DNA of 64,000 bases from Candidatus Nitronereus thalassa (GTDB lineage Bacteria; Nitrospirota; Nitrospiria; Nitrospirales; UBA8639). The translations under genes were made by a program, and so were the position numbers. Below, piece after piece: positions 5,652-28,692 of this stretch. The stretch spans positions 124,001 to 188,000 of the forward strand of contig NZ_JAQOUE010000001.1 of assembly GCF_032191465.1 (NCBI RefSeq), given 5' to 3'. How positions within the stretch are numbered: the first letter of the stretch is position 1; each line of letters starts with the position of its first letter. The notes under the pieces are model-generated. The model saw only the letters and a program-made list of their open reading frames with translations, did no database searches and was not told the origin of the DNA.

Positions 5652-6586
5652 GCGGCCTGTACACCCCGGAAATTGAACTCGTCCTCGAGCAAGGCCGCAA
5701 GCTGCTCGACCAGCGGAGTGCGGAGGGCCGCGCGCTGTCATATGGCAAGATCGCCAAAGACCTCGGCATGTCCGCCGCATCGGTGTCGAATTTCTTCAAT
5801 CGCAAACAGGTGGGGGACGTCAAAAAACTCGCCGACCTGCTCAAACATTTCATCGAGCGAGAACGCGCGCGCGACGAGGCCTCGCTGCTCACAGTGCCGT
5901 TCACCGACACGCGGCAGGCCAAGAAAATGATGCAGGCCTTGCAGTTCGCGCACCAATATCATCGGCTGGTCGCCGTGGTCTCGCCGCCTGGGACAGGCAA
6001 GTCCACCACCGTGCAGGAGGCACAGCGGCGAGACCCTTCCATCGTGCGCGTGCATGCCGCCAACTTTTTCGGCCCCACGGCCACGTTGCAGGAAATGTGT
6101 GAAGAGCTGCGCGAGCCGCAGACCGGGACCTCCCGCGCGTTGATGAAACGCATTCGCGCCAAACTCAAAGGCACCGGCCGGCTGCTCGTCATCGACGATG
6201 CCCACAAACTGCGGCCCAACGCCCTGGACACCGTGCAAACCGTGTACGACCAGACGGGCATCGGCATTGTGTTGTTCGGCACGCGGGAATTGAAACGCAT
6301 CCTGACGGCCATCGACGAACGCTCCGAGCAAATGGCCTCGCGCGTCGCCGGCCGTATTTGGGAAATCCCCGAGGTGGATCGCAACGACCTCGCGTTGATC
6401 CTGGGTGCCGTCATGCCCGAGGACCACGTGGAGGAGGCGCTGCATCTGTTGGAGGACGACCCGTCCACGCTCACGTCGCCGCGCCGGCTGGGCAACGTCA
6501 TCGAAATCGCCGGACGCCTCGCGCAAAAACACAAAGGCGCGCTGGGCCTCACCCATATTCGTCAAGCCATGAAACTCTCGGCATGA
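5648..6586 (+). CDS. MuB-type transposition ATPase (target-binding AAA+)
   Basis: 312 residues, the same length as MuB. An N-terminal HTH (LSYGKIAKDLGMSAASVSNFF) is followed by a AAA+ domain with Walker A SPPGTGKST, Walker B LLVIDDAH and the sensor-like segment GIVLFGTREL. The C-terminal helical bundle carries LTSPRRLGNVIEIAGRLA. The protein would bind target DNA with ATP and stimulate the transposase. I chose ATG 5648 (overlapping the upstream stop) over ATG 5618. A functional pair with the transposase at 2214. Confidence 0.9.
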   Translation: MSGLYTPEIELVLEQGRKLLDQRSAEGRALSYGKIAKDLGMSAASVSNFFNRKQVGDVKKLADLLKHFIERERARDEASLLTVPFTDTRQAKKMMQALQFAHQYHRLVAVVSPPGTGKSTTVQEAQRRDPSIVRVHAANFFGPTATLQEMCEELREPQTGTSRALMKRIRAKLKGTGRLLVIDDAHKLRPNALDTVQTVYDQTGIGIVLFGTRELKRILTAIDERSEQMASRVAGRIWEIPEVDRNDLALILGAVMPEDHVEEALHLLEDDPSTLTSPRRLGNVIEIAGRLAQKHKGALGLTHIRQAMKLSA

Positions 6587-7482: not shown

Positions 7483-7670
7483 TGACACGTTCGCTGTTTG
7501 TGGTCTGCGATGCGTCGGATGAACCCATGCTCGATGGCTTTGCCGACTCGGCGGAGGACGCCGTGAAAAAATTCTGCGTCGCCAATCACCTCACCAAGAT
7601 CGGTTTTGAAGAATATGCCTTTCACGTGCGCCACGCGACCGTCATGCTCGGGGAGGTGTGCCAGCCATGA
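7482..7670 (+). CDS. Hypothetical 62-residue protein downstream of the tRNA
   Basis: The frame MTRSLFVVCDASDEPMLDGF to MLGEVCQP follows the tRNA closely, with an AGGAGG ribosome site at 7469-7474. ATG 7482 is 7 bases from it; ATG 7479, in frame and overlapping the upstream stop, is the alternative. The first six residues, MTRSLF, recur at the start of the exported protein at 9112. The FEEYAFHVRHA segment suggests a small alpha/beta fold. No function recognised. Confidence 0.55.
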   Translation: MTRSLFVVCDASDEPMLDGFADSAEDAVKKFCVANHLTKIGFEEYAFHVRHATVMLGEVCQP

Positions 7671-7960
7671 GACTCGAGGCCGACGTGCATGTGTGCCATG
7701 CCAAAGGCTGCGGCACGCCCATTCCCTCGCGGCTGCTCATGTGCCGCCCGCATTGGGCGCTGGTGCCGCCGCCGCTCAAGCGCCGGGTGCTGGAGGCCTT
7801 CACGCCGGGGCAAGAGCGTGGGCAGGTCCGGCCCAGCCAGGAGTGGACGCAGGCGGCCATGGCCGCCATCAAAGCCGTGGCATTGACCGAGCGGCATCAG
7901 GCGGAGCAGACGGCCGTGCCGGTGTCTGACGAGATGCCCGTGGAGGTGTGGTGGCCATGA
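7667..7960 (+). CDS. Phage zinc-site protein (C-x4-C ... C-x2-H type)
   Basis: 97 residues. The N-terminus has HVCHAKGCGTPIPSRLLMCRPHWALVPPPLKRRV. Spaced Cys and CxxH residues followed by HW..vP..l mark a common small phage protein family that probably binds zinc. From memory it is found in many tailed phages near replication genes, with no proven function. ATGA overlaps at both ends place it in the coupled early operon. Confidence 0.65.
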   Translation: MRLEADVHVCHAKGCGTPIPSRLLMCRPHWALVPPPLKRRVLEAFTPGQERGQVRPSQEWTQAAMAAIKAVALTERHQAEQTAVPVSDEMPVEVWWP

Positions 7961-20246: not shown

Positions 20247-21718
20247 ACTGGTCCACCGTCAAAACGCGGATCGTCGACATGCTGTTCCATGACGTGGTGC
20301 AGGCCAAAGTCCAACAGGCCGTCGGCCCGTTGTCGTTGACGCTGGATCCGAGCAACGCCGGATTCCGCCGCCTCACGGACAAAACCTCGCCGCGCGATCT
20401 GCCCATTCCCACGCAGGAGCGCATGCAGGAGATCGCCTATTTTCTCTGGCTCACGAATCCCATGGCCAAATGGCTGTTGAACATGCAGGTGGCCTATATC
20501 GTGGGCGAGGGTGTCGAAATGCAGGCCGAGGACGAGGCGGTCAAAGCCATCATCGAGACCTGGTGGACCGACGGCGTCAATCAATGGCCGTTGAAGCTGC
20601 CCAAAAAGGTGCGTGAACTGGCCATGTTCGGCGAGCAATGTTGGCCGGCATTCGTGGCGCCGGGCACGGGCCGCGTGCGACTCGGATATTTGGATCTCTC
20701 GCAGATTGAAGAGGTGGTGCTGGACCCGGACAACGCCGAGCAGCCCGTGGGCGTCATCACCAAAGAGCAGCACGGCCATGTGCGCGTGCCGCAGCGCCGA
20801 TACAGCGTGATCCTGCCGGTGGGCGAGGAGGAGTTGACGCCCATCACGCAGCAGCTCCGCCAGCAATTCACCGACGGCCCCTGTTTTTATTTTGCCATCA
20901 ACAATGTGTCCAACGGCTCGCGCGGCATTTCCGATTTGTTCGACCGCGCCGACTGGCTCGACGGATACGATCAAATGCTGTTCCAACGGCTCGAGCGGTC
21001 CGACCTGGCCAATCGCATCGTGTACGATCTGACGTTGAACGGGTACACGCAAGATCAAGTCACCGAGTTCATGAAGCACTTTCAGTTGCCCAAACCCGGC
21101 GGCGTGCACGGCCACAATGAAAAAGTCACGCTCGAGGCCAAATCGCCCACCATGAATTCGGACGACGCCTGGACCGATGCGCGCATGTTCAAACATCAAA
21201 GCCTGGCGCCATTCCCCGAGCATTGGTTTGGCGGCGGCGGCGACGTCAATCGCGCGACCGCCAGCGAAATGGACGAGCCCACGTTCAAGCTGCTCGGCGA
21301 GCGGCAAAAACTGTGGAAAGCCATTCTCGAGCAGGTCGCGGGATATTCCATTCGACAGGCCAAAATGGCCGGCCATCTCGCACAGACCGCCGAGGAGACC
21401 GTCACCGCCGTCTTTCCTGAAATGGTCACGGCGGACCTGGCCGGCCTCGGGCAGACCGTGCAGTCGGTCTCGCAAGCCGTGGCCACGCTGCTCGCGCAAG
21501 AGATCATCACCAAACCCGAGGCGCGGCGCATGGTCTCCGTCATCGTCAAATCGTTCGGCGTCGAGTTGGAAGATTTGAGCGAGGAGGATCTGGAAAAAAT
21601 GTTCAACGAAAACGAATTGACCGAGTCGCAACGCGACGTCGTCCGCACCGCGCGCACGCGAGGCGCGGAGCCCAGCGACGAGCCCCGAGCCCCGAGCGAC
21701 AAGGAGCAAGCCTCATGA
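20243..21718 (+). CDS. Portal protein with a repeat-derived C-terminus
   Basis: 491 residues, about the usual length for portals. AYFLWLTNPMAKWLLNMQVA, then YIVGEGVEMQAEDEAV, QWPLKLPKKVRELAMFGEQC and RGISDLFDRADWLDGY are typical portal segments. The C-terminal part is helical. The final residues TRGAEPSDEPRAPSDKEQAS are read from DNA of the same AGCGACGAGCCCCGAGC family that fills the following junctions, so the C-terminus seems to have been rewritten by that element. Portals form the dodecameric gate for packaging. Start 20243 is supported by AGAGGAG. Confidence 0.8.
   Translation: MNWSTVKTRIVDMLFHDVVQAKVQQAVGPLSLTLDPSNAGFRRLTDKTSPRDLPIPTQERMQEIAYFLWLTNPMAKWLLNMQVAYIVGEGVEMQAEDEAVKAIIETWWTDGVNQWPLKLPKKVRELAMFGEQCWPAFVAPGTGRVRLGYLDLSQIEEVVLDPDNAEQPVGVITKEQHGHVRVPQRRYSVILPVGEEELTPITQQLRQQFTDGPCFYFAINNVSNGSRGISDLFDRADWLDGYDQMLFQRLERSDLANRIVYDLTLNGYTQDQVTEFMKHFQLPKPGGVHGHNEKVTLEAKSPTMNSDDAWTDARMFKHQSLAPFPEHWFGGGGDVNRATASEMDEPTFKLLGERQKLWKAILEQVAGYSIRQAKMAGHLAQTAEETVTAVFPEMVTADLAGLGQTVQSVSQAVATLLAQEIITKPEARRMVSVIVKSFGVELEDLSEEDLEKMFNENELTESQRDVVRTARTRGAEPSDEPRAPSDKEQAS
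21667..21710 (+). repeat. Head-module repeat sequence inside the portal 3' end
   Basis: The unit AGCGACGAGCCCCGAGCC, repeated with CCGAGCGAC, is the same word family as the right arms of the junction elements downstream. Here it is translated as SDEPRAPSD. Confidence 0.6.
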
Positions 21719-22497
21719 ACGGCACCATCATTCTTTCCAAATGGCTGGGCGGCAAGTCGCGCATCTGCAAACAGCTCATCGAGCTGTTGCCCGAGCATCA
21801 TTGTTATGTCGAGCCGTTTGGGGGCATGGCCTCGGTGTTGTTGAACAAACCGGCGTCGGCCGTCGAGGTGTACAACGATCTGAATGGCCAGATCGCGACT
21901 CTGTTCATGGTGCTCAAATTTCATCCCGACGAACTGGCGCGCGAGCTGCAGGGGCTGGTCATCAGCCGCCAGCTCTTCGAGCACTTCAAGTCCCACGCGG
22001 GCCTGACAGACATCCAACGGGCGGCGCGGCTGTTGTATGCGCTGGAATATGGGTTCGGCGGACAGGGCCAGCACTTTGGCACCTCCACGCACAAGAGCGC
22101 CATCTCGGTGCAGGCCGTGATCGGACGCGCGGATCTCGTGGCGACGCGCTTCACCCGCGTGGTGGTGGAAAATCTGGATTGGGAGGACTGCCTGGCGCGA
22201 TACGATTCTCCGCAGACGGTATTCTTTTGCGATCCGCCATATTGGGGGACGGCCGGATATGCCGTGCCCTTTTCCGAACGCGATCAAATCGTGTTGGCCG
22301 ATCGGTTGCGGGCCATTCAAGGAAAATTTGTGATGACCAACAGCGATGCGCGATTCGTCCGCGGCCTCTATCGCGGGCTGCCCATGCGCACCCTCAAAAG
22401 CAAGTTGACGGCCGGATCCTCCAACAGCTCCACGCTCTCCCATTTGGTGGTGACGAATTTTGACCACCGGGCAGGCAGCGTGCGGGGGGGGGGGTGA
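21715..22497 (+). CDS. DNA adenine methyltransferase, D12 class (Dam-like)
   Basis: 260 residues. An N-terminal SAM site (WLGGKSRICKQLIELLP, with YVEPFGGMASVLLNKP as the FxGxG motif) is followed by the catalytic DPPYWGTAGY. This is the alpha-class m6A methylase layout of Dam and D12 enzymes. It could protect phage DNA from host restriction, the role played by Mom in Mu. The last codons run through eleven consecutive G (22484-22494) just before TGA, so slippage would change the C-terminus. ATG overlaps the portal stop. Confidence 0.85.
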   Translation: MNGTIILSKWLGGKSRICKQLIELLPEHHCYVEPFGGMASVLLNKPASAVEVYNDLNGQIATLFMVLKFHPDELARELQGLVISRQLFEHFKSHAGLTDIQRAARLLYALEYGFGGQGQHFGTSTHKSAISVQAVIGRADLVATRFTRVVVENLDWEDCLARYDSPQTVFFCDPPYWGTAGYAVPFSERDQIVLADRLRAIQGKFVMTNSDARFVRGLYRGLPMRTLKSKLTAGSSNSSTLSHLVVTNFDHRAGSVRGGG

Positions 22498-22520
22498 TCG
22501 CCGCATGACCAGCAAGCGCC

Positions 22521-22609
22521 AACGAGCGACCAGCCCCGAGCCCCGAGCCACGAGCGACGAGATGCGAAATACGAAATACGAGCGACGAAATCCGAGCGAC
22601 GAGGCACGA
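22521..22609. repeat. Head-module junction element 1 (methylase/MuF)
   Basis: About 90 bases of ACGAGCGAC, CCCCGAGCC and CGAAATACGA words fill the junction before the MuF start. Only the right-arm orientation is present, so no long hairpin forms within this copy. Confidence 0.7.
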
Positions 22610-22613
22610 ATTC

Positions 22614-23501
22614 ATGAGTGAACGCGAGGACGTGCGGATCTTTCAAGAGCAGATTCGGCAGCAGCGCAAGCAGGTCGTTGAAGACGGCCAGCTCCGGGTG
22701 CGCCGGCTGTTGCAGCGCACGCACCGCGAGATCATCGGCACGCTCGCCGTCACGGACTGGCAGAAAGCCTTTCTGCCCCGCATGCAGCTCGCGATCGAGG
22801 ACGCGCTGGCGCGCATCGAGGGGCAGGTCTCCAGCGACCTGACCGAGTTGCAACAGGCCAACTGGCTGCTGGGCGACACCATGACCACCGGCACGGTGCA
22901 GGCCATGCGCATCGGCGTGGCCCTGCCCGACCTGCCCACGTCCTTGTTGCAGGCGCTGCAGCAACGCGCGGGCGAGACCGTCAAGGGTCTCCTGCGCATC
23001 GGCAAAGTGAAAATCGATCGAGCCGTCACCGGCGCGCTGCTCGGCGGCCAGACGCGCGAGGAGGCCATCAAGGCCATCGGCCAGGCGTTGGAATTTTCCG
23101 AGCGCGGCGTCAAGCCTCAGGGCATTTTCCCCTCGGTGGACCGGCGCGCGCGCTTCATTTTTCAGCATGAGGCCGGGCAGGCGTTTTCCACCGCGCAGGC
23201 GCTGCGGCGCGATGCCGTGGTGTCATACGCGCCGGATCTCCAAAAGGTGTGGGTGCACGACGGCCATCCGCTCGTGCCGCGCGGCGACCACGTGGCCATG
23301 CACGGCACGCGCATCAAGAATGACGAGGCCTTTGTCAATCCGTTCACCGGCCACGCGCTGCGCTTTCCGCGCGACGGCCAGGCGCCCATTGAAGAGACGG
23401 CGAATTGCACCTGCGACGTCATGCTGTATCGCCCGGCATATGGCGACGTCGAATCGTTCATCGGCCTGCCCACCGGCACGCCCATCGAGGAGGCGGCGTG
23501 A
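22614..23501 (+). CDS. Phage head morphogenesis protein (MuF/gp30-like)
   Basis: 295 residues. The helical N-terminal half is followed by a MuF-type domain. ERGVKPQGIFPSVDRRARFI, then RDAVVSYAPDLQKVWVHDGH and GDHVAMHGTRIKNDEAFVNP lead into LRFPRDGQAPIEETANCTCD, the conserved NCxC ending. MuF proteins are minor head proteins next to the portal that travel with or stabilise the DNA. ATG 22614 follows junction element 1 directly and has no strong ribosome site, so initiation may depend on a read-through or coupled message. Confidence 0.85.
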   Translation: MSEREDVRIFQEQIRQQRKQVVEDGQLRVRRLLQRTHREIIGTLAVTDWQKAFLPRMQLAIEDALARIEGQVSSDLTELQQANWLLGDTMTTGTVQAMRIGVALPDLPTSLLQALQQRAGETVKGLLRIGKVKIDRAVTGALLGGQTREEAIKAIGQALEFSERGVKPQGIFPSVDRRARFIFQHEAGQAFSTAQALRRDAVVSYAPDLQKVWVHDGHPLVPRGDHVAMHGTRIKNDEAFVNPFTGHALRFPRDGQAPIEETANCTCDVMLYRPAYGDVESFIGLPTGTPIEEAA

Positions 23502-23512
23502 AGAATACCAAC

Positions 23513-23590
23513 GTCGCTCGTATTTCGTCGCTCGTATCTCGTCAAACAAACGAGTCCCGAGCGACGAGCGACGAGTCCCGAGCGACGAGC
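23513..23590. repeat. Head-module junction element 2 (hairpin)
   Basis: The left arm, two GTCGCTCGT units and ATCTCGTC (23513-23543), and an A-rich loop AAACAAA are followed by right-arm units ACGAGCGACGAG and TCCCGAGC (23551-23590). The arms can pair as a long imperfect hairpin. A ribosome site GAAGGAGG follows before the next ATG. Confidence 0.8.
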
Positions 23591-23633
23591 CCCTGGTCCC
23601 GAGCCACATTTTTCATCATAGAAGGAGGACAGC

Positions 23634-23903
23634 ATGACTGAACAGATTCCCGAGGTCGGACGCATCGTGCGATATGTGTTGCCGGAGGGCCGGAACAAGG
23701 GCCAGCACCGGCCGGCCATCATTGTGAAGGTGTGGGATGCGCCCACAAGCATGGTCAACCTGGACGTGTTCATGGATGGCCTGAATGATGAACAGCAGCA
23801 CCCTGTGCAATGGCGGCATTCCGTCCATTTTGACATGCAACGCACCCCCGGCTCCTGGCATTGGCCGGGCATCGAGGCGCCCGAGCCCGAACTCGCGGCG
23901 TGA
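23634..23903 (+). CDS. Small structural-region protein
   Basis: 89 residues with a strong GAAGGAGG before ATG 23634. VGRIVRYVLPEGRNKGQHRP, then AIIVKVWD and VNLDVFMDGLND suggest a small beta barrel. HFDMQRTPGSWHWPGIEAPE closes the protein. Similar small proteins occur beside capsid genes in phages; no function recognised. Confidence 0.6.
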   Translation: MTEQIPEVGRIVRYVLPEGRNKGQHRPAIIVKVWDAPTSMVNLDVFMDGLNDEQQHPVQWRHSVHFDMQRTPGSWHWPGIEAPEPELAA

Positions 23904-23913
23904 AGAATACCAA

Positions 23914-24035
23914 CGTCGCTCGTGGCTGGTCGCTCGTCAAAAAAAAGAGCCACGAGTCCCGAGCGACGAGTCCCGAGTCCCGAGCGACGAGCGACGAGCG
24001 ACGAGCGACGAGTCCTGAGTTTCAAGCGACGAGCA
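23914..24035. repeat. Head-module junction element 3 (hairpin)
   Basis: GTCGCTCGTGGCTGGTCGCT and an A8 loop are followed by a long right arm with four successive GAGCGAC units. It shares its first 29 bases with element 2, beginning in the last codons of the upstream gene (GCGGCGTGAAGAATACCAAC...), and also the trailing ACATTTTTCAT, so elements 2 and 3 are recent copies of one another. Confidence 0.8.
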
Positions 24036-24065
24036 ACATTTTTCATTCAACCAATGGAGGACACC

Positions 24066-24455
24066 ATGGCCAATCACACTGATGAACACAAAGCTGCCGC
24101 ACAACAAGCCGAGGCCGACAAAAAAGCTGCCGAGGACAAAGCCGCCGAGGACAAAGCCGCCGCACAAAAAGCTGCGGTCACGCCGCCGGTCGGCCCGACG
24201 CCGGATGCCAAACCACCCATCCCGCTGTCGCGGGCGGTCAAGGGGTTTGAATATCAAGATCACAAGGAGGTCCCGGCGCGCGACGACCAGGGCCAGGTCA
24301 TCAAGCGAGGCGACCAGACGGTGATGAAACGCATGCCCATGATGCGGCCGCTCGAGGAGGGCGACCTCATGAGCTGGAACGTGGTCGGCGACGTGTTGAT
24401 CCTGTGCACGCGCGATGGCCGCAAACACCGCGTGAGCCTCAACGGCAGCCGGTGA
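24066..24455 (+). CDS. Ala/Lys-rich structural-region protein
   Basis: 129 residues with GGAGG before ATG 24066. The N-terminal 40 residues are a low-complexity helix (AAAQQAEADKKAAEDKAAED), then the Pro-rich PPVGPTPDAKPPIPLS. The C-terminal domain has VKGFEYQDHKEVPARDDQGQ and VVGDVLILCTRDGRKHRVSL, a small beta fold. It may be a decoration or head-assembly protein; not recognised. Confidence 0.55.
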   Translation: MANHTDEHKAAAQQAEADKKAAEDKAAEDKAAAQKAAVTPPVGPTPDAKPPIPLSRAVKGFEYQDHKEVPARDDQGQVIKRGDQTVMKRMPMMRPLEEGDLMSWNVVGDVLILCTRDGRKHRVSLNGSR

Positions 24456-24464
24456 AGAAATGCA

Positions 24465-24580
24465 CGTCGTTCGTCGCTCGCACCTCGTCGCTCGTCAAAT
24501 ACACACGAGTCCCGAGTCCCGAGTCCCGGGCGACGAGCGACGAGTCCCGGGCGACGAGCCCCGAGCGACGAGCCCCGAGC
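24465..24580. repeat. Head-module junction element 4 (hairpin)
   Basis: GTCGTTCGTCGCTCGCACCT and CGTCGCTCGTC, loop AAATACACA, then three CGAGTCCC units and GGGCGACGAGCGACGAGTCC. A GAAAGGAG ribosome site follows. Confidence 0.8.
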
Positions 24581-24603
24581 CACTATTTTGAAAGGAGCCA
24601 TCG

Positions 24604-27081
24604 ATGGCCACAAGACTGAAGACCAAAACCCAGCAGGCCGAGATCCCGGACACCTTGAGCCTCGATCGGCTCCGTGAGTCGTTGCGCGAGGCGATCAAGG
24701 CCACGTTGCTCGTGCCGGACGGCGAGTTTCCCAATTTTTTCATCGAGTCGATCTTTGCCAATCGCGTGATCATTCGCGACGACAACGGCCAGCTCTGGCA
24801 ATACGCATACACCGTGGCCGCCGACAGCGCCATCACGCTCGGCGACCGCACCGCCGTCGAGGTCGATTTCAAACCCGTGCAGCAGGCCTGGACCGGCCAG
24901 GGCGATGTGCGCATCACGCAGGCGCTCAATGCCGAGGGCACCGAATGGGAGGTGCACGTCCTGCGGGCGGGGCTCGGGGCGAATCGCCAGTTTTTCCCGG
25001 AGGCGACGCTGCGCCAATGCGCCGGCGTGTTCGAAGGCGCGCGCGTGTTTTGTCTGGACGACGGCCAGCATTCCAAAACCGGCGACAAGTCCGCCAAACA
25101 AATCGTCGGCTGGATTCACCAGTCGGCGTTCACGGAGGGCGTGGGCATCACCGGCCGGCTGCAGATTCTGCAGACCGCCGACTGGCTCCGCCAAAACCTG
25201 CTCGATTCGCATGCCAAAGGCAAGCCCGATTTGTACGGCCTCTCGGTGGATGCGCCCGGACACGCCACCACCCGGCAGATTCAACAAAGCGGCCAGCCCA
25301 TGGCCGTGCAATATTTCACCAAAATCACCGCGCCCGCGACCGTGGATGTTGTCTGGAATCCCGGCACGCCTGGCGGGTTTCAACGCGCCTTGAACGCCCA
25401 GGGCGCGCAACCAGAGGAGGAGCTGCTCATGCTCGACAAGTTGCTGAAAATTTTACAAGCCAAACGGCCGGAGGTGTATGCCACCCTCGACCAGAACAAC
25501 ATCACCGAGGACCGGGTCCTGCAGCTCATCGAGCATGGCATGGACCCCGCACAGGCCCAACAGGCGACCGATGCCCCCGCGCCGACAGGCCCTGGTCATG
25601 CGCCGGGCAAGACGGCCCCGGAGTCTTCCGCGAGCCCATTGTCTGACGAGGACCGCGCCCTGATTCGGCAGGCCACCATCACCGGCTGGAACGGCCAGGT
25701 GCGCGAGGCGCTCGCCGAATCGAAATTGCCCGAGGTCATGCAGGCGCAGGTGCGCAAACGGTTCATGGATCATCCGGGCGATCTCGCCCAGGTGCAACAG
25801 GCCATCACCGAGCACAAGGAGACGCTCGATGCTTTGAGTCCCGCCGGCAAAGTCACAGGCATGGGCCACGTGCACCAGGTCACGGTGGAAAGCGAGATCG
25901 AACAAATCCAACAGGCCATGGACAAAATGATGGGCATCCGGGATGTGCCCGGCGATGTCCCCGCGTTCCGTGGGTTGAAACATGCATATCGCGTGATCAC
26001 CGGCGACCAGGAGATGCAGGGCGACCGCTCCGCGTATGACGCCACCAAACTGTCGCGCATGTTGCAGGCCGCGACGTTGTACACCCGCGAGGGCGTCGAT
26101 CAGGAAAAACCCGGATATGTCCGCGCGCAGCAGGCGCAGCTCGCCAGCTCCTGGCCGTTGATCCTGGGCAACACGCTCTATCGCCGGTTGATTCAGGAAT
26201 ATGCCGCGGTGGAATACGGCGAGAATTTCTTGATCTCCAATCGCCGGCGCGCCACGGATTTCCGCACCATTGAAGCCAACAACCTCGGCTATTTTGCCGA
26301 CCTGCCCACCGTCGACACCGAACAGGCCGACTATACGGAGGCCGCCGAACTCGGTGAAGAGGGCGTGGGCTATACCGTGGGCACCCGCGGAGTGCTCGTC
26401 ACGGTGACGCGCAAGACCATGTTGAACGACGACCTCGGTGCGGTCACGCAAATTCCCACACGGCTCGGCCGTGCGGCCCGGCGCACGCTGGCCCGGTTTC
26501 TCTGGAATTTCTGGATCGCCAACAGCACGTATGACGGCGACGCCACCGCCTGGTTCCATGCCAATCACAGCAATCTCGGCTCCACGGCCTTGACGGCCAA
26601 TGCCGCCGGGGTGGCGGCCGTGGTGGCCGCGTTGGATCGGCTGGCGGCACAAACCGAGCCCGGCTCGGCTGAACGGCTGGCCGGTGCCTGGTGGTTGATG
26701 CAACCCGTGCTGGTGGTGCCCGGCGCCCTGGCCGGCATTGCCAAACAGTTGAATCAATCGGGCGGCATTCCGGGCGCGGCCAACAACGGCGACAATTCGG
26801 TCGCCGGGCTGTTCGGCGATGCCATGAAGCCCGAGCGCATCTTTGTCAATCCGTTGCTCACGGATGCCACCGACTGGGGCTTGCTCCGCAACCCCAGCGA
26901 GATCGGCATCCTCGAGGTGGCGTTCTTGAACGGCCAGGAGCAGCCCGAATTGTTCCTCGCCGACAGTCCGACCGTCGGGCAAATGTTCCTGGCGGACAAG
27001 CTGCAATACAAGATCCGCCACGAATATGGCGCCGAGATTGTCGATTTCCGCGGTGCCGACAAATCGGTGGTCGCAGGATAA
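24604..27081 (+). CDS. Prohead protease / major capsid protein fusion
   Basis: 825 residues. Residues about 95-275 look like a prohead-protease domain (FFPEATLRQCAGVFEGARVF, IVGWIHQSAFTEGVGITGRL). Residues 276-450 are helical and scaffold-like (MLDKLLKILQAKRPEVYATL, ATDAPAPTGPGHAPG). The rest fits a major capsid protein (FRTIEANNLGYFADLPTVDT, VGTRGVLVTVTRKTMLNDDL, WFHANHSNLG, KYKIRHEYGAEIVDF-like end). An in-frame ATG at 25429 has GAGGAGGAG 8 bases upstream and could give a separate scaffold-capsid product. Fusions of protease and capsid are known in some phages. Confidence 0.75.
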   Translation: MATRLKTKTQQAEIPDTLSLDRLRESLREAIKATLLVPDGEFPNFFIESIFANRVIIRDDNGQLWQYAYTVAADSAITLGDRTAVEVDFKPVQQAWTGQGDVRITQALNAEGTEWEVHVLRAGLGANRQFFPEATLRQCAGVFEGARVFCLDDGQHSKTGDKSAKQIVGWIHQSAFTEGVGITGRLQILQTADWLRQNLLDSHAKGKPDLYGLSVDAPGHATTRQIQQSGQPMAVQYFTKITAPATVDVVWNPGTPGGFQRALNAQGAQPEEELLMLDKLLKILQAKRPEVYATLDQNNITEDRVLQLIEHGMDPAQAQQATDAPAPTGPGHAPGKTAPESSASPLSDEDRALIRQATITGWNGQVREALAESKLPEVMQAQVRKRFMDHPGDLAQVQQAITEHKETLDALSPAGKVTGMGHVHQVTVESEIEQIQQAMDKMMGIRDVPGDVPAFRGLKHAYRVITGDQEMQGDRSAYDATKLSRMLQAATLYTREGVDQEKPGYVRAQQAQLASSWPLILGNTLYRRLIQEYAAVEYGENFLISNRRRATDFRTIEANNLGYFADLPTVDTEQADYTEAAELGEEGVGYTVGTRGVLVTVTRKTMLNDDLGAVTQIPTRLGRAARRTLARFLWNFWIANSTYDGDATAWFHANHSNLGSTALTANAAGVAAVVAALDRLAAQTEPGSAERLAGAWWLMQPVLVVPGALAGIAKQLNQSGGIPGAANNGDNSVAGLFGDAMKPERIFVNPLLTDATDWGLLRNPSEIGILEVAFLNGQEQPELFLADSPTVGQMFLADKLQYKIRHEYGAEIVDFRGADKSVVAG

Positions 27082-27087
27082 AAAAAC

Positions 27088-27166
27088 GTCGCTCGTATTT
27101 CGTCGCTCGTCGCTCGCAAGAGTGCCGGGCGACGGGGGACGAGCCACGAGCAACCAGCAACGAGCC
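27088..27166. repeat. Head-module junction element 5
   Basis: GTCGCTCGTATTTCGTCGCT and CGTCGCTCGC, loop AAGAGTG, then CCGGGCGACGGGGGACGAGC and ACGAGCAACCAGCAACGAGC. The right arm is more diverged than in the other copies. ACTATTTT follows it, as after element 4. Confidence 0.75.
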
Positions 27167-27195
27167 ACTATTTTCACACGGACAAGGAGGTCCCC

Positions 27196-27789
27196 ATGAA
27201 TATCAGATCACGATCAACAACCACGCGAGTGCTCATGGTCATGACGGCGATGGCCGTGCTGGCGGTGATGCCGATGGCGCCGACGGTCGTGCCCGACCGC
27301 GCCGACGTCGCATCGCACGACATGGATCTCGCGCCATCACCATCGGTCGCCTCCATGGCGCCGGCCTTCGACGGCGCACTGCTCCGGGCGCTCGGATTCG
27401 AGAATGCCGCATATGCGGCCACGGACAATCCCAGTACGGGCAGCGCCGGATACATTCTGCAAACGTTTCAATACCAGGGGCAGCTCTCCTCGAGCGTGGC
27501 CAACAAGTCCACCTGGAAAGCGCCCTGGCCCATGCGGCTGATCGACATCAAATGCTCGATCCGCGATCTCGACCTGACGACCACGGATGAAACGTACACG
27601 TTCACGTTGCAAGAGGGCGCGGGCACCGTGGCCACCTGCGCGCCGACGGCGGATGCCACGGAGGTCTCGGGGACCATCACCGCGGCCGACGTGGCCGACG
27701 AGGCCGTGTTGACCATCGATTATGCGGGCGGCGGCACCACGCCACTGGCCGACGACGTGACCATCATTCTCGTGTGGAAACGACAATAA
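27196..27789 (+). CDS. Structural-region protein with an N-terminal hydrophobic segment
   Basis: 197 residues with AAGGAGG before ATG 27196. The N-terminus has VLMVMTAMAVLAVMPMAPTV, which looks like a signal or membrane segment, unusual for a virion protein. After a variable stretch a beta domain follows (ILQTFQYQGQLSSSVANKST, WKAPWPMRLIDIKCSIRDLD, DDVTIILVWKRQ). It lies right after the capsid gene, where head decoration proteins often are. Function unknown. Confidence 0.55.
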   Translation: MNIRSRSTTTRVLMVMTAMAVLAVMPMAPTVVPDRADVASHDMDLAPSPSVASMAPAFDGALLRALGFENAAYAATDNPSTGSAGYILQTFQYQGQLSSSVANKSTWKAPWPMRLIDIKCSIRDLDLTTTDETYTFTLQEGAGTVATCAPTADATEVSGTITAADVADEAVLTIDYAGGGTTPLADDVTIILVWKRQ

Positions 27790-27797
27790 AAACCCAG

Positions 27798-27878
27798 TTG
27801 CTCGTGGCTCGTCGCTGGTCGCTCGTCAAAAAACCGAGCCCCAGCCCACGAGCCACGAGCGACGAGATGCGAGCGACG
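27798..27878. repeat. Head-module junction element 6 (hairpin)
   Basis: GTTGCTCGTGGCTCGTCGCT and GGTCGCTCGTC, loop with A6, then CCGAGCCCCAGCCCACGAGC and CACGAGCGACGAG. It ends within 10 bases of the next ATG. Confidence 0.75.
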
Positions 27879-27886
27879 GAAATTCT

Positions 27887-28573
27887 ATGAGCACGATTCA
27901 AACCTTTGAACTCTTGATGAACGATCGGCTGCGCGACGCCAAGGGCCTCATCGAGCAGGACGACAAGCACAAGGCCATTCAACAGGCGTTGAAAGCCTAC
28001 AACAAAGAGCGCCCGCGCGAGCTGGTGCAGGACTATTCGGGCGACGGCGCCACGTTCGATCTGACGCTGCCCGCGAGCTGGGCGGCGGAGTTTTCGCTGG
28101 TGCGGTCGATTGAATATCCCGTGGGCCAGCGCGAGCCGGTGCTGTTGGAGCGGACGGATTGGGCGGTGTATCGCACGCCGAGCGGGCAGGTCTTGCGCCT
28201 GCAGGTCACGCCGCAGACCGGCGAGACCGCGCGCGTGACGTATACGGCCCCGCATGCCGTGGATTTTTCCTCGTCCACCGTGTTCGCGCAGGACGAGGAG
28301 GCGGTGGCGGATCTGGCGGCCTCGATCGGACTGCGAGATCTCGCGACGATTTTTGCGAGCAAGCAGGATGCGACGATCGCCGCCGACAGCGTCGACCATC
28401 AATCCAAGGCGCGCGAATTTTTGAAGCTGGCCGACGTGCTAGAGACACGCTATCGCGAGCATGTAGGCATCGGCATGACCACGCCGGTGCAGGCGGCCAG
28501 CACGTTTGTGGACGTCGACCAGCAAGGTCCCGGCCAGGGCGACAAACTCACGCACCCGAATCGCTATCGATGA
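27887..28573 (+). CDS. Head-tail adaptor type protein
   Basis: 228 residues. An N-terminal helical part (FELLMNDRLRDAKGLIEQDD, KHKAIQQALKAYNKERPREL) is followed by a beta part (SWAAEFSLVRSIEYPVGQRE) and a helical C-terminus (SVDHQSKAREFLKLADVLET). The layout and position, two genes after the capsid, suit a head-completion or adaptor protein. The start at 27887 immediately follows element 6, with no clear ribosome site. Confidence 0.6.
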   Translation: MSTIQTFELLMNDRLRDAKGLIEQDDKHKAIQQALKAYNKERPRELVQDYSGDGATFDLTLPASWAAEFSLVRSIEYPVGQREPVLLERTDWAVYRTPSGQVLRLQVTPQTGETARVTYTAPHAVDFSSSTVFAQDEEAVADLAASIGLRDLATIFASKQDATIAADSVDHQSKAREFLKLADVLETRYREHVGIGMTTPVQAASTFVDVDQQGPGQGDKLTHPNRYR

Positions 28574-28580
28574 GGGGGCG

Positions 28581-28687
28581 TTGCTCGTCGCTCGTATCTC
28601 GTCGCTCGTAAAAAAAAAGAGCCAGCGACGAGTCCCGAGCGACGAGCAACGAGTCCCGAGCAACGAGCAACGAGCAACGAGCAACGA
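28581..28687. repeat. Head-module junction element 7 (hairpin)
   Basis: GTTGCTCGTCGCTCGTATCT and CGTCGCTCGT, an A9 loop, then GCGACGAGTCCCGAGCGACG and five AGCAACG units. It abuts the next start, leaving only AATTTT before the ATG. Confidence 0.8.
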
Positions 28688-28692
28688 ATTTT

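Follow-up and report, generated by a model that had tools for sequence, protein, structure and literature searches.

What are the repeated elements that fill seven successive gene junctions in the head module of a prophage of Candidatus Nitronereus thalassa, and do they act there or are they merely carried along? The window, a 64,000-nt stretch of contig NZ_JAQOUE010000001.1, contains a module coding for portal, MuF-like protein, protease-capsid fusion and tape measure. An earlier note had described its junction elements (22.5-28.7 kb) as phage-specific inverted repeats of 80-120 bases built from 12-mer arm words. On balance, we favour a reading in which they are palindromes of 7-nt units (heptads) that ride as passengers at five junctions and have an RNA-hairpin role at two, namely behind the capsid gene and behind the gene that follows it. 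The product of the latter, here called the decoration-position gene, is probably a decoration protein by its position only, without a family match.

All seven junctions had been placed correctly, and each consists of an array of degenerate 7-nt units, CGAG or CGAA followed by NNN. An array scan revealed that the right arm reads CGAGNNN and the left arm its reverse complement NNNCTCG, with an A-rich loop in between; the supposed 12-mers turned out to be concatenated heptads. A strict period scan of the window (threshold 27/35 matches, lags 5-11) yielded five clusters of period 7, all within the head junctions, and no windows at lags 5, 6 and 8-11 anywhere in the 64 kb. CGAGCGACGAG was counted 18 times versus 0.02 expected. 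The sizes given earlier had to be corrected to 97-162 nt for the spacers and about 85-126 nt for the elements.

Copies 2 to 7 comprise a short left arm, an A-rich loop and a right arm. Folding predictions gave energies of -43 to -61 kcal/mol and z-scores against dinucleotide shuffles of -3.6 to -6.6 (Table 1), in agreement with the folding proposed before. Copy 1, as stated earlier, contains right-arm heptads only, and no hairpin was predicted for it (z +0.1). Several of the phage copies resemble one another in their loops (TCAAAAAA..GAGCC). Copies 2 and 3 have 29 nt in common at their left ends, GCGGCGTGAAGAATACCAACGTCGCTCGT, which start in the last two Ala codons of each preceding gene and run through the stop into the element; their right ends also have ACATTTTTCAT (11 nt) in common. 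The copying relation suggested for these two copies thus holds. A search of Rfam returned no family above gathering score, only sub-threshold matches, and those on the elements were to microRNA-type models.

Comparison with phage relatives bears on what the hairpins might do. The syntenic prophage of G169 shows identities of 53% in portal, 42% in MuF and 55% in capsid. Its MuF/g24 and g24/major capsid protein spacers measure 18 and 23 nt and are bare, with no extra coding sequence. Its capsid/decoration spacer harbors, besides a GC hairpin, a short run of heptads in a different dialect (CGAGCGA CGCTTCA CGAACGA CGAACGA CGAACCA), and its portal gene ends in CGTGAAA/CGTCAAA heptads. At g278/g286, the G169 prophage (L086 2100-8004, reverse strand) carries about 6 kb of extra genes; the first one codes for a Tat-like N-terminus and overlaps with the stop of g278. 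That the elements are remnants of decayed genes, an alternative named in the earlier note, would fit the open frames of copy 0, at the end of the portal gene, and copy 1. This explanation is extremely improbable, as the orthologous G169 junctions are without an extra gene and stop codons are so rare in the units that the arrays stay open for this reason alone.

Capsid relatives in viral contigs were detected with a three-sequence alignment query (43 relatives), a single-protein scan having given 0 matches. Most of them are without unit arrays. In 42 relatives, 100-nt windows after the stop codons were folded and called structured at z below -2, with windows inside the capsid gene as background (5% structured). 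The site after the capsid stop was structured in 45% of the 42 relatives (p 8e-9), and the site after the decoration-position gene in 56% of 16 (p 4e-7). In contrast, structure after portal, MuF, g278 and g286 was found in 9, 9, 10 and 4% of relatives. The structured sites after capsid and decoration-position genes are usually formed by unrelated sequence in the relatives, so the position of a hairpin is conserved at two sites. An RNA-hairpin role at these two of the seven spacers is probable, and at the other five junctions the element is most likely a passenger.

Several observations weigh against this division. The 100-nt windows used for the relatives may take in coding sequence. In L288 (capsid identity 61%), several junctions have unit-repeat hairpins, in 9-nt and 7-nt dialects (9-nt units GACCAGACA and GACGCAATA; junctions 2822-2868, 5725-5850 and 7656-7709), which could signal selection for hairpins instead of tolerance. 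Seven tolerated spacers in succession would be unusual for pure passengers in a compact phage genome. In five of the six hairpins, the right arm exceeds the left in length. Moreover, the order of units within the arms is no better than a permuted one (p 0.10), which lends no support to arm-templated copying or to strong selection on the details of the stem. Arm-to-arm templating was discarded on this test, in which permuted heptad order folded no significantly worse (mean z -0.34).

If the hairpins acted at every junction, each would stabilise or partly terminate the upstream message and thereby set head-protein ratios, a role the earlier note had considered. Six strong predicted hairpins between co-directional head genes, T-rich DNA after most right ends and the two sites structured in relatives are consistent with such control, as are the unit-repeat hairpins at several junctions of L288 and of L299 (7-nt units GGGTCAT and GTTACGA in the latter). 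However, a terminator scan allowing loops of at most 8 called none of the six hairpins on the plus strand. Copies 2-5 do have ATTTT or ATTTTT a few bases from the array end, but away from the predicted main stem. Copy 1 is unfolded, the same design occurs inside bacterial coding genes, and structure in the relatives after portal, MuF, g278 and g286 does not exceed that inside the capsid gene. We consider RNA control at all junctions unlikely; of the earlier proposal, the part concerning two junctions is supported by the comparison and the part concerning the others is not.

To place the phage copies, the design was searched for outside the prophage. The strict pattern CGAGNNNCGAGNNNCGAG had 41 matches in the host genome (4.01 Mb), 28 in 7 kb of prophage and 13 elsewhere, and a looser pattern added about twenty more chromosomal places; these host counts derive from pattern searches. 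Heptad palindromes occur commonly in two genera of the family, the host's genus g1 and genus g5, and are rare in the remaining ones. Genome searches thus located the design in chromosomes of the host genus, of another genus and of other phyla, contrary to the phage-specific nature assigned to it before. Their density in the prophage is extreme all the same, as the 28 matches in 7 kb show. In another genus, contigs C9 and C10 of G005 (L040, L059) contain long perfect CGAGAGC heptad runs.

The polarity of the element is fixed. Among 49 genomes of the host's family, TCGTNNNTCGT-loop-ACGANNNACGA gave 79 matches, including matches overlapping within one element, versus 2 for the reversed order. In loci fetched earlier the ratio was 34 versus 3, and all three reversed matches were either a different repeat or overlaps. 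Since element order is unchanged by reverse complementing, fixed polarity is a property of the element and not of the strand. The elements are variable arrays of about 60-135 bp, whose arms differ in units and length. A loop core, TAARAAACTGAAGGACTTTTCCC, is common to 9 of 42 chromosomal elements, and none of 200 shuffles matched as well. For most pairs of these core-sharing elements, identity is limited to 50-70 bp (73-93%) in unrelated places with different flanks; some pairs are true orthologues or local duplications, and one element has at least 13 partial copies in G016. The element-bearing spacer at one site has a length of about 300 nt in G016; in G013 and G006 the spacer is 20-24 nt long, and in G019 and G022 unrelated sequence takes its place. 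This is a presence/absence difference, but no clean empty site was found. A further dispersed repeat, distinct from the heptads and about 100 nt long, is located next to a heptad palindrome at L336 1176-1275; genomes of genus g5 contain many copies of it.

Such dispersal, together with the defined polarity, recalls a transposed miniature element similar to REPINs or Rickettsia palindromic elements (RPEs), moving from junction to junction with a transposase supplied in trans. The presence or absence of a whole spacer between species (L336 versus 20-24 nt in G013 and G006) and the in-frame occurrence, as in RPEs, point in the same direction, and the small mobile repeat suggested in the earlier note fits the chromosomal family in this respect. 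A mobilising enzyme was not identified: the host genome has no match to PF01797 (Y1, the RAYT-type transposase), and heptad palindromes are few or lacking in genomes that do bear Y1, such as G007 and G009. No constant ends, target-site duplication or clean empty site were found. Furthermore, length and unit composition vary among the phage copies, and shared flanks are confined to copies 2 and 3. Transposition is therefore quite unlikely in our view.

The prophage and chromosomal arrays differ in their units. The GC-rich dialect of the prophage is dominated by CGAGCGA (25 of 69 units) and CGAGTCC (11 of 69), that of the host chromosome by CGAGATA (32 of 140) and CGAAATA (31 of 140). The phage word CGAGTCCCGAGCGACGAG was present in none of the other 395 genomes in a set of 396 from Nitrospirota and in no viral contig. 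Given these differences, the copies were probably not recently taken from the present host chromosome, and such a recent origin was rejected. An independent expansion of simple repeats at each junction, with no common descent among the copies or with the chromosomal family, might be suggested by dialects that differ among relatives (7- and 9-nt units) and across phyla, and heptamers are over-represented in many bacteria according to PMC4692102. Slippage alone, however, gives no convergent inverted pair, and the polarity is almost absolute; the loops of several copies are alike, and copies 2 and 3 resemble each other at both ends. Independent origins are accordingly improbable.

Beyond the family, the hairpin pattern CTCGTNNCTCGT-loop-ACGAGNNACGAG was found in at least 116 stretches across many phyla. 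The matches listed include Acidobacteriota, Planctomycetota, several proteobacterial groups, Verrucomicrobiota, Omnitrophota, Peregrinibacteria, Chloroflexi and Nitrospirota. Many stretches are extended by further units with an own dialect per genome (almost only CGAGAAA in Bryobacterales), and some short ones may be chance. In other phyla, polarity outside the fetched matches could be read from one pair only. In 2.9 million viral contigs, the pattern had 3 matches, all short and chance-like. We tentatively suggest, as a rather speculative extension, a cross-phylum class of heptad palindromes (ACGAGNN, convergent arms) that would spread within genomes without a known transposase, be carried and locally amplified by phages, where it could take over the positions of functional RNA hairpins, and occupy junctions and protein loops, each genome with its specific dialect.

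Several chromosomal heptad copies lie inside genes and in frame. In hybrid histidine kinases, the receiver loop before PIIAMTANAM mostly has 6-15 amino acids (aa). Ten of 26 sampled receivers have loops of 27-42 aa, a fraction biased because many loci were fetched for their heptads, and nine of these ten consist of period-7 DNA without a stop (e.g. KRESLLVARDSSLGDQEISGASDERRATSDQRR). Such arrays, coding for loops of 33-42 aa without a stop, were located at L062 8195-8310 and 11800-11890, L075 5645-5690 and L077 6180-6215. In addition, heptad arrays code in frame for N-terminal leaders located immediately in front of prepilin-like GFxLLE motifs (L063 6995-7120 and 9060-9225, L070 7680-7830, L072 7885-7950). 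The arrays rarely hold stops in any frame, which may be the reason why they are tolerated.

A mechanism based on passenger palindromes with a hairpin role at two sites might be as follows. The phage copies have a GC-rich dialect of their own, and the repeat design to which they belong is found dispersed across host-genus chromosomes. Arrays would grow and shrink by whole units, presumably by slippage, and would sometimes be copied together with their flanks, as shown for copies 2 and 3. They would persist where the DNA tolerates them: between genes, at the ends of genes and, in bacteria, in flexible loops of proteins. The strong predicted hairpins would form in the mRNA. After the capsid and decoration-position genes, the element would act as, or have replaced, an RNA hairpin that relatives keep with other sequences.

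The features of the module are compiled in Table 1. Copy 0, an eighth heptad run missed in the earlier note, forms the in-frame 3′ end of the portal gene and codes for its last residues; no hairpin was predicted (z -0.06). With copy 0 in this position, the D12 methylase gene has a heptad run on both sides, and over 26 nt these runs hardly differ. Just before the end of the methylase frame, a run of at least 10 G (22484-22494) is a possible slippage or frameshift site. The stop of the 38-aa frame formed by copy 1 overlaps the start of the MuF-like gene. The head genes after copies 1, 6 and 7 (starts 22614, 27887 and 28693) have no clear Shine-Dalgarno site apart from array letters; the genes after copies 2-5 do have one.

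Table 1. Heptad arrays and genes of the prophage head module (window positions; z-scores against dinucleotide shuffles).
Feature	Position	Strand	Evidence or remark
Copy 0, heptad run CCAGCGA CGAGCCC CGAGCCC CGAGCGA ...	21672..21710	+	Array scan, translation
D12-class adenine methylase gene	21715..22497	+	PF02086
38-aa open frame formed by copy 1, MTSKRQRATSPEPRATSDEMRNTKYERRNPSDEARIHE	22505..22621	+	
Copy 1, right-arm heptads only, 13 units	22520..22613	+	Array scan, folding
MuF-like head morphogenesis gene	22614..23501	+	PHROG 2468, E 3e-19; PF04233 at its cut-off
Copy 2: left arm 23510-23543, loop about AAACAAA, right arm 23551-23608	23510..23608	+	Hairpin z -5.8
89-aa gene	23634..23903	+	PHROG 2293 (function unknown)
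Copy 3: left arm 23912-23938, A8 loop, right arm 12-13 units	23912..24037	+	Hairpin z -3.6
g24, small head-module gene, 129 aa	24066..24455	+	Homologues in G169, G159, L288-L290
Copy 4: left arm 24462-24496, loop AAATACAC, right arm 24505-24584 (11 units)	24462..24586	+	Hairpin z -5.7
Protease and major capsid fusion gene	24604..27081	+	PF25209; PHROG 4523 'major head and protease protein'
Copy 5, after capsid gene	27085..27169	+	Hairpin z -4.8; unrelated hairpin often here in relatives
Gene after capsid (probable decoration protein, by position)	27196..27789	+	Homologues in G169, G159, L288, L289
Copy 6, after decoration-position gene	27794..27879	+	Hairpin z -6.0; unrelated hairpin often here in relatives
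g278, head-tail region gene	27887..28573	+	Homologues in G169, L288, L289
Copy 7: left arm 28579-28609, A9 loop, right arm 10 units	28579..28691	+	Hairpin z -6.6; site mostly unstructured in relatives

The D12 methylase had no counterpart at the same place in the relatives examined, the one weak D12 match lying elsewhere (L315), and for the 89-aa gene between copies 2 and 3 no counterpart at this place was detected in the relatives searched. As each of the two genes is flanked by heptad runs, the arrays might be recombination linkers, homology patches that admit cargo genes to the head module. The near identity of the methylase-flanking arrays and the 29 nt common to copies 2 and 3 around the 89-aa gene, which include codons of the preceding genes, would suit this explanation. 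The bracketing itself is no independent evidence, because every junction of the block has an array and bracketing is unavoidable; moreover, G169 has its extra segment of about 6 kb at g278/g286, where no strong heptad array was called. The linker function proposed in the earlier note is therefore a possible role to which we attach little weight.

Heptad palindromes with passenger status at most junctions can be compared with known systems, the closest of which include the degenerate heptamers of Xanthomonas (GGGNATC) and Nostoc (GGGGA(C/T)T). According to Rehm et al. (2015; PMC4692102), these are mostly intergenic, close behind the upstream gene, and dispersed genome-wide with lengths varying between species; about 70 convergent inverted pairs are able to form stem-loops. 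As in the Xanthomonas repeats, the unit of the phage elements is exactly 7 nt long, is repeated in tandem and has a partly conserved core; convergent pairs occur in six of the seven phage copies. The Xanthomonas and Nostoc units are G-rich and form quadruplexes, whereas the phage units CGAGNNN are without G-tracts. They were not found on the plasmids examined, and the excerpts of that paper describe neither phage copies nor in-frame protein inserts; here, by contrast, seven copies are found in one phage module. The P6b element of the Nostoc trnL intron shares 7-nt arms with their complement, whole-unit insertions and deletions, and class replacement, but it is a single site in a self-splicing intron and not a dispersed junction element (PMC4476775).

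REPINs are likewise dispersed intergenic hairpins formed by an inverted doublet. Their conserved REP words are tied to a RAYT transposase (PMC3116915), whereas the heptad arms have no constant word beyond a 3-4 nt core. With no Y1 match in the host and no constant word in the arms, a REPIN was ruled out. RPEs also occur both between genes and in frame within genes, but they are about 150 bp long and fall into defined families with a conserved peptide (reviewed in PMC10969869), in contrast to the variable heptad arrays. Tandem 7-nt units at many loci are also known as the heptanucleotide elements of Geobacter metallireducens (PMC2700814) and as TAACTGA repeats in Beggiatoaceae (PMC4679880). They are mostly direct repeats of one fixed word, and the excerpts of these two papers describe no phage junction set. 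A search of the open literature for the heptad core words returned unrelated papers only. The heptad element is a real and well-defined feature, which works like the known heptamer repeats but without their sequences.

Intergenic heptamer repeats are known in a few bacteria. Seven copies in seven successive spacers, together with a syntenic relative that has bare spacers at several of these positions, constitute a small testable system, which permits testing of repeat growth, copying and effects on expression. The in-frame copies in receiver loops and pilin leaders mean that such repeats also reshape proteins, which is relevant to repeat-driven protein evolution.

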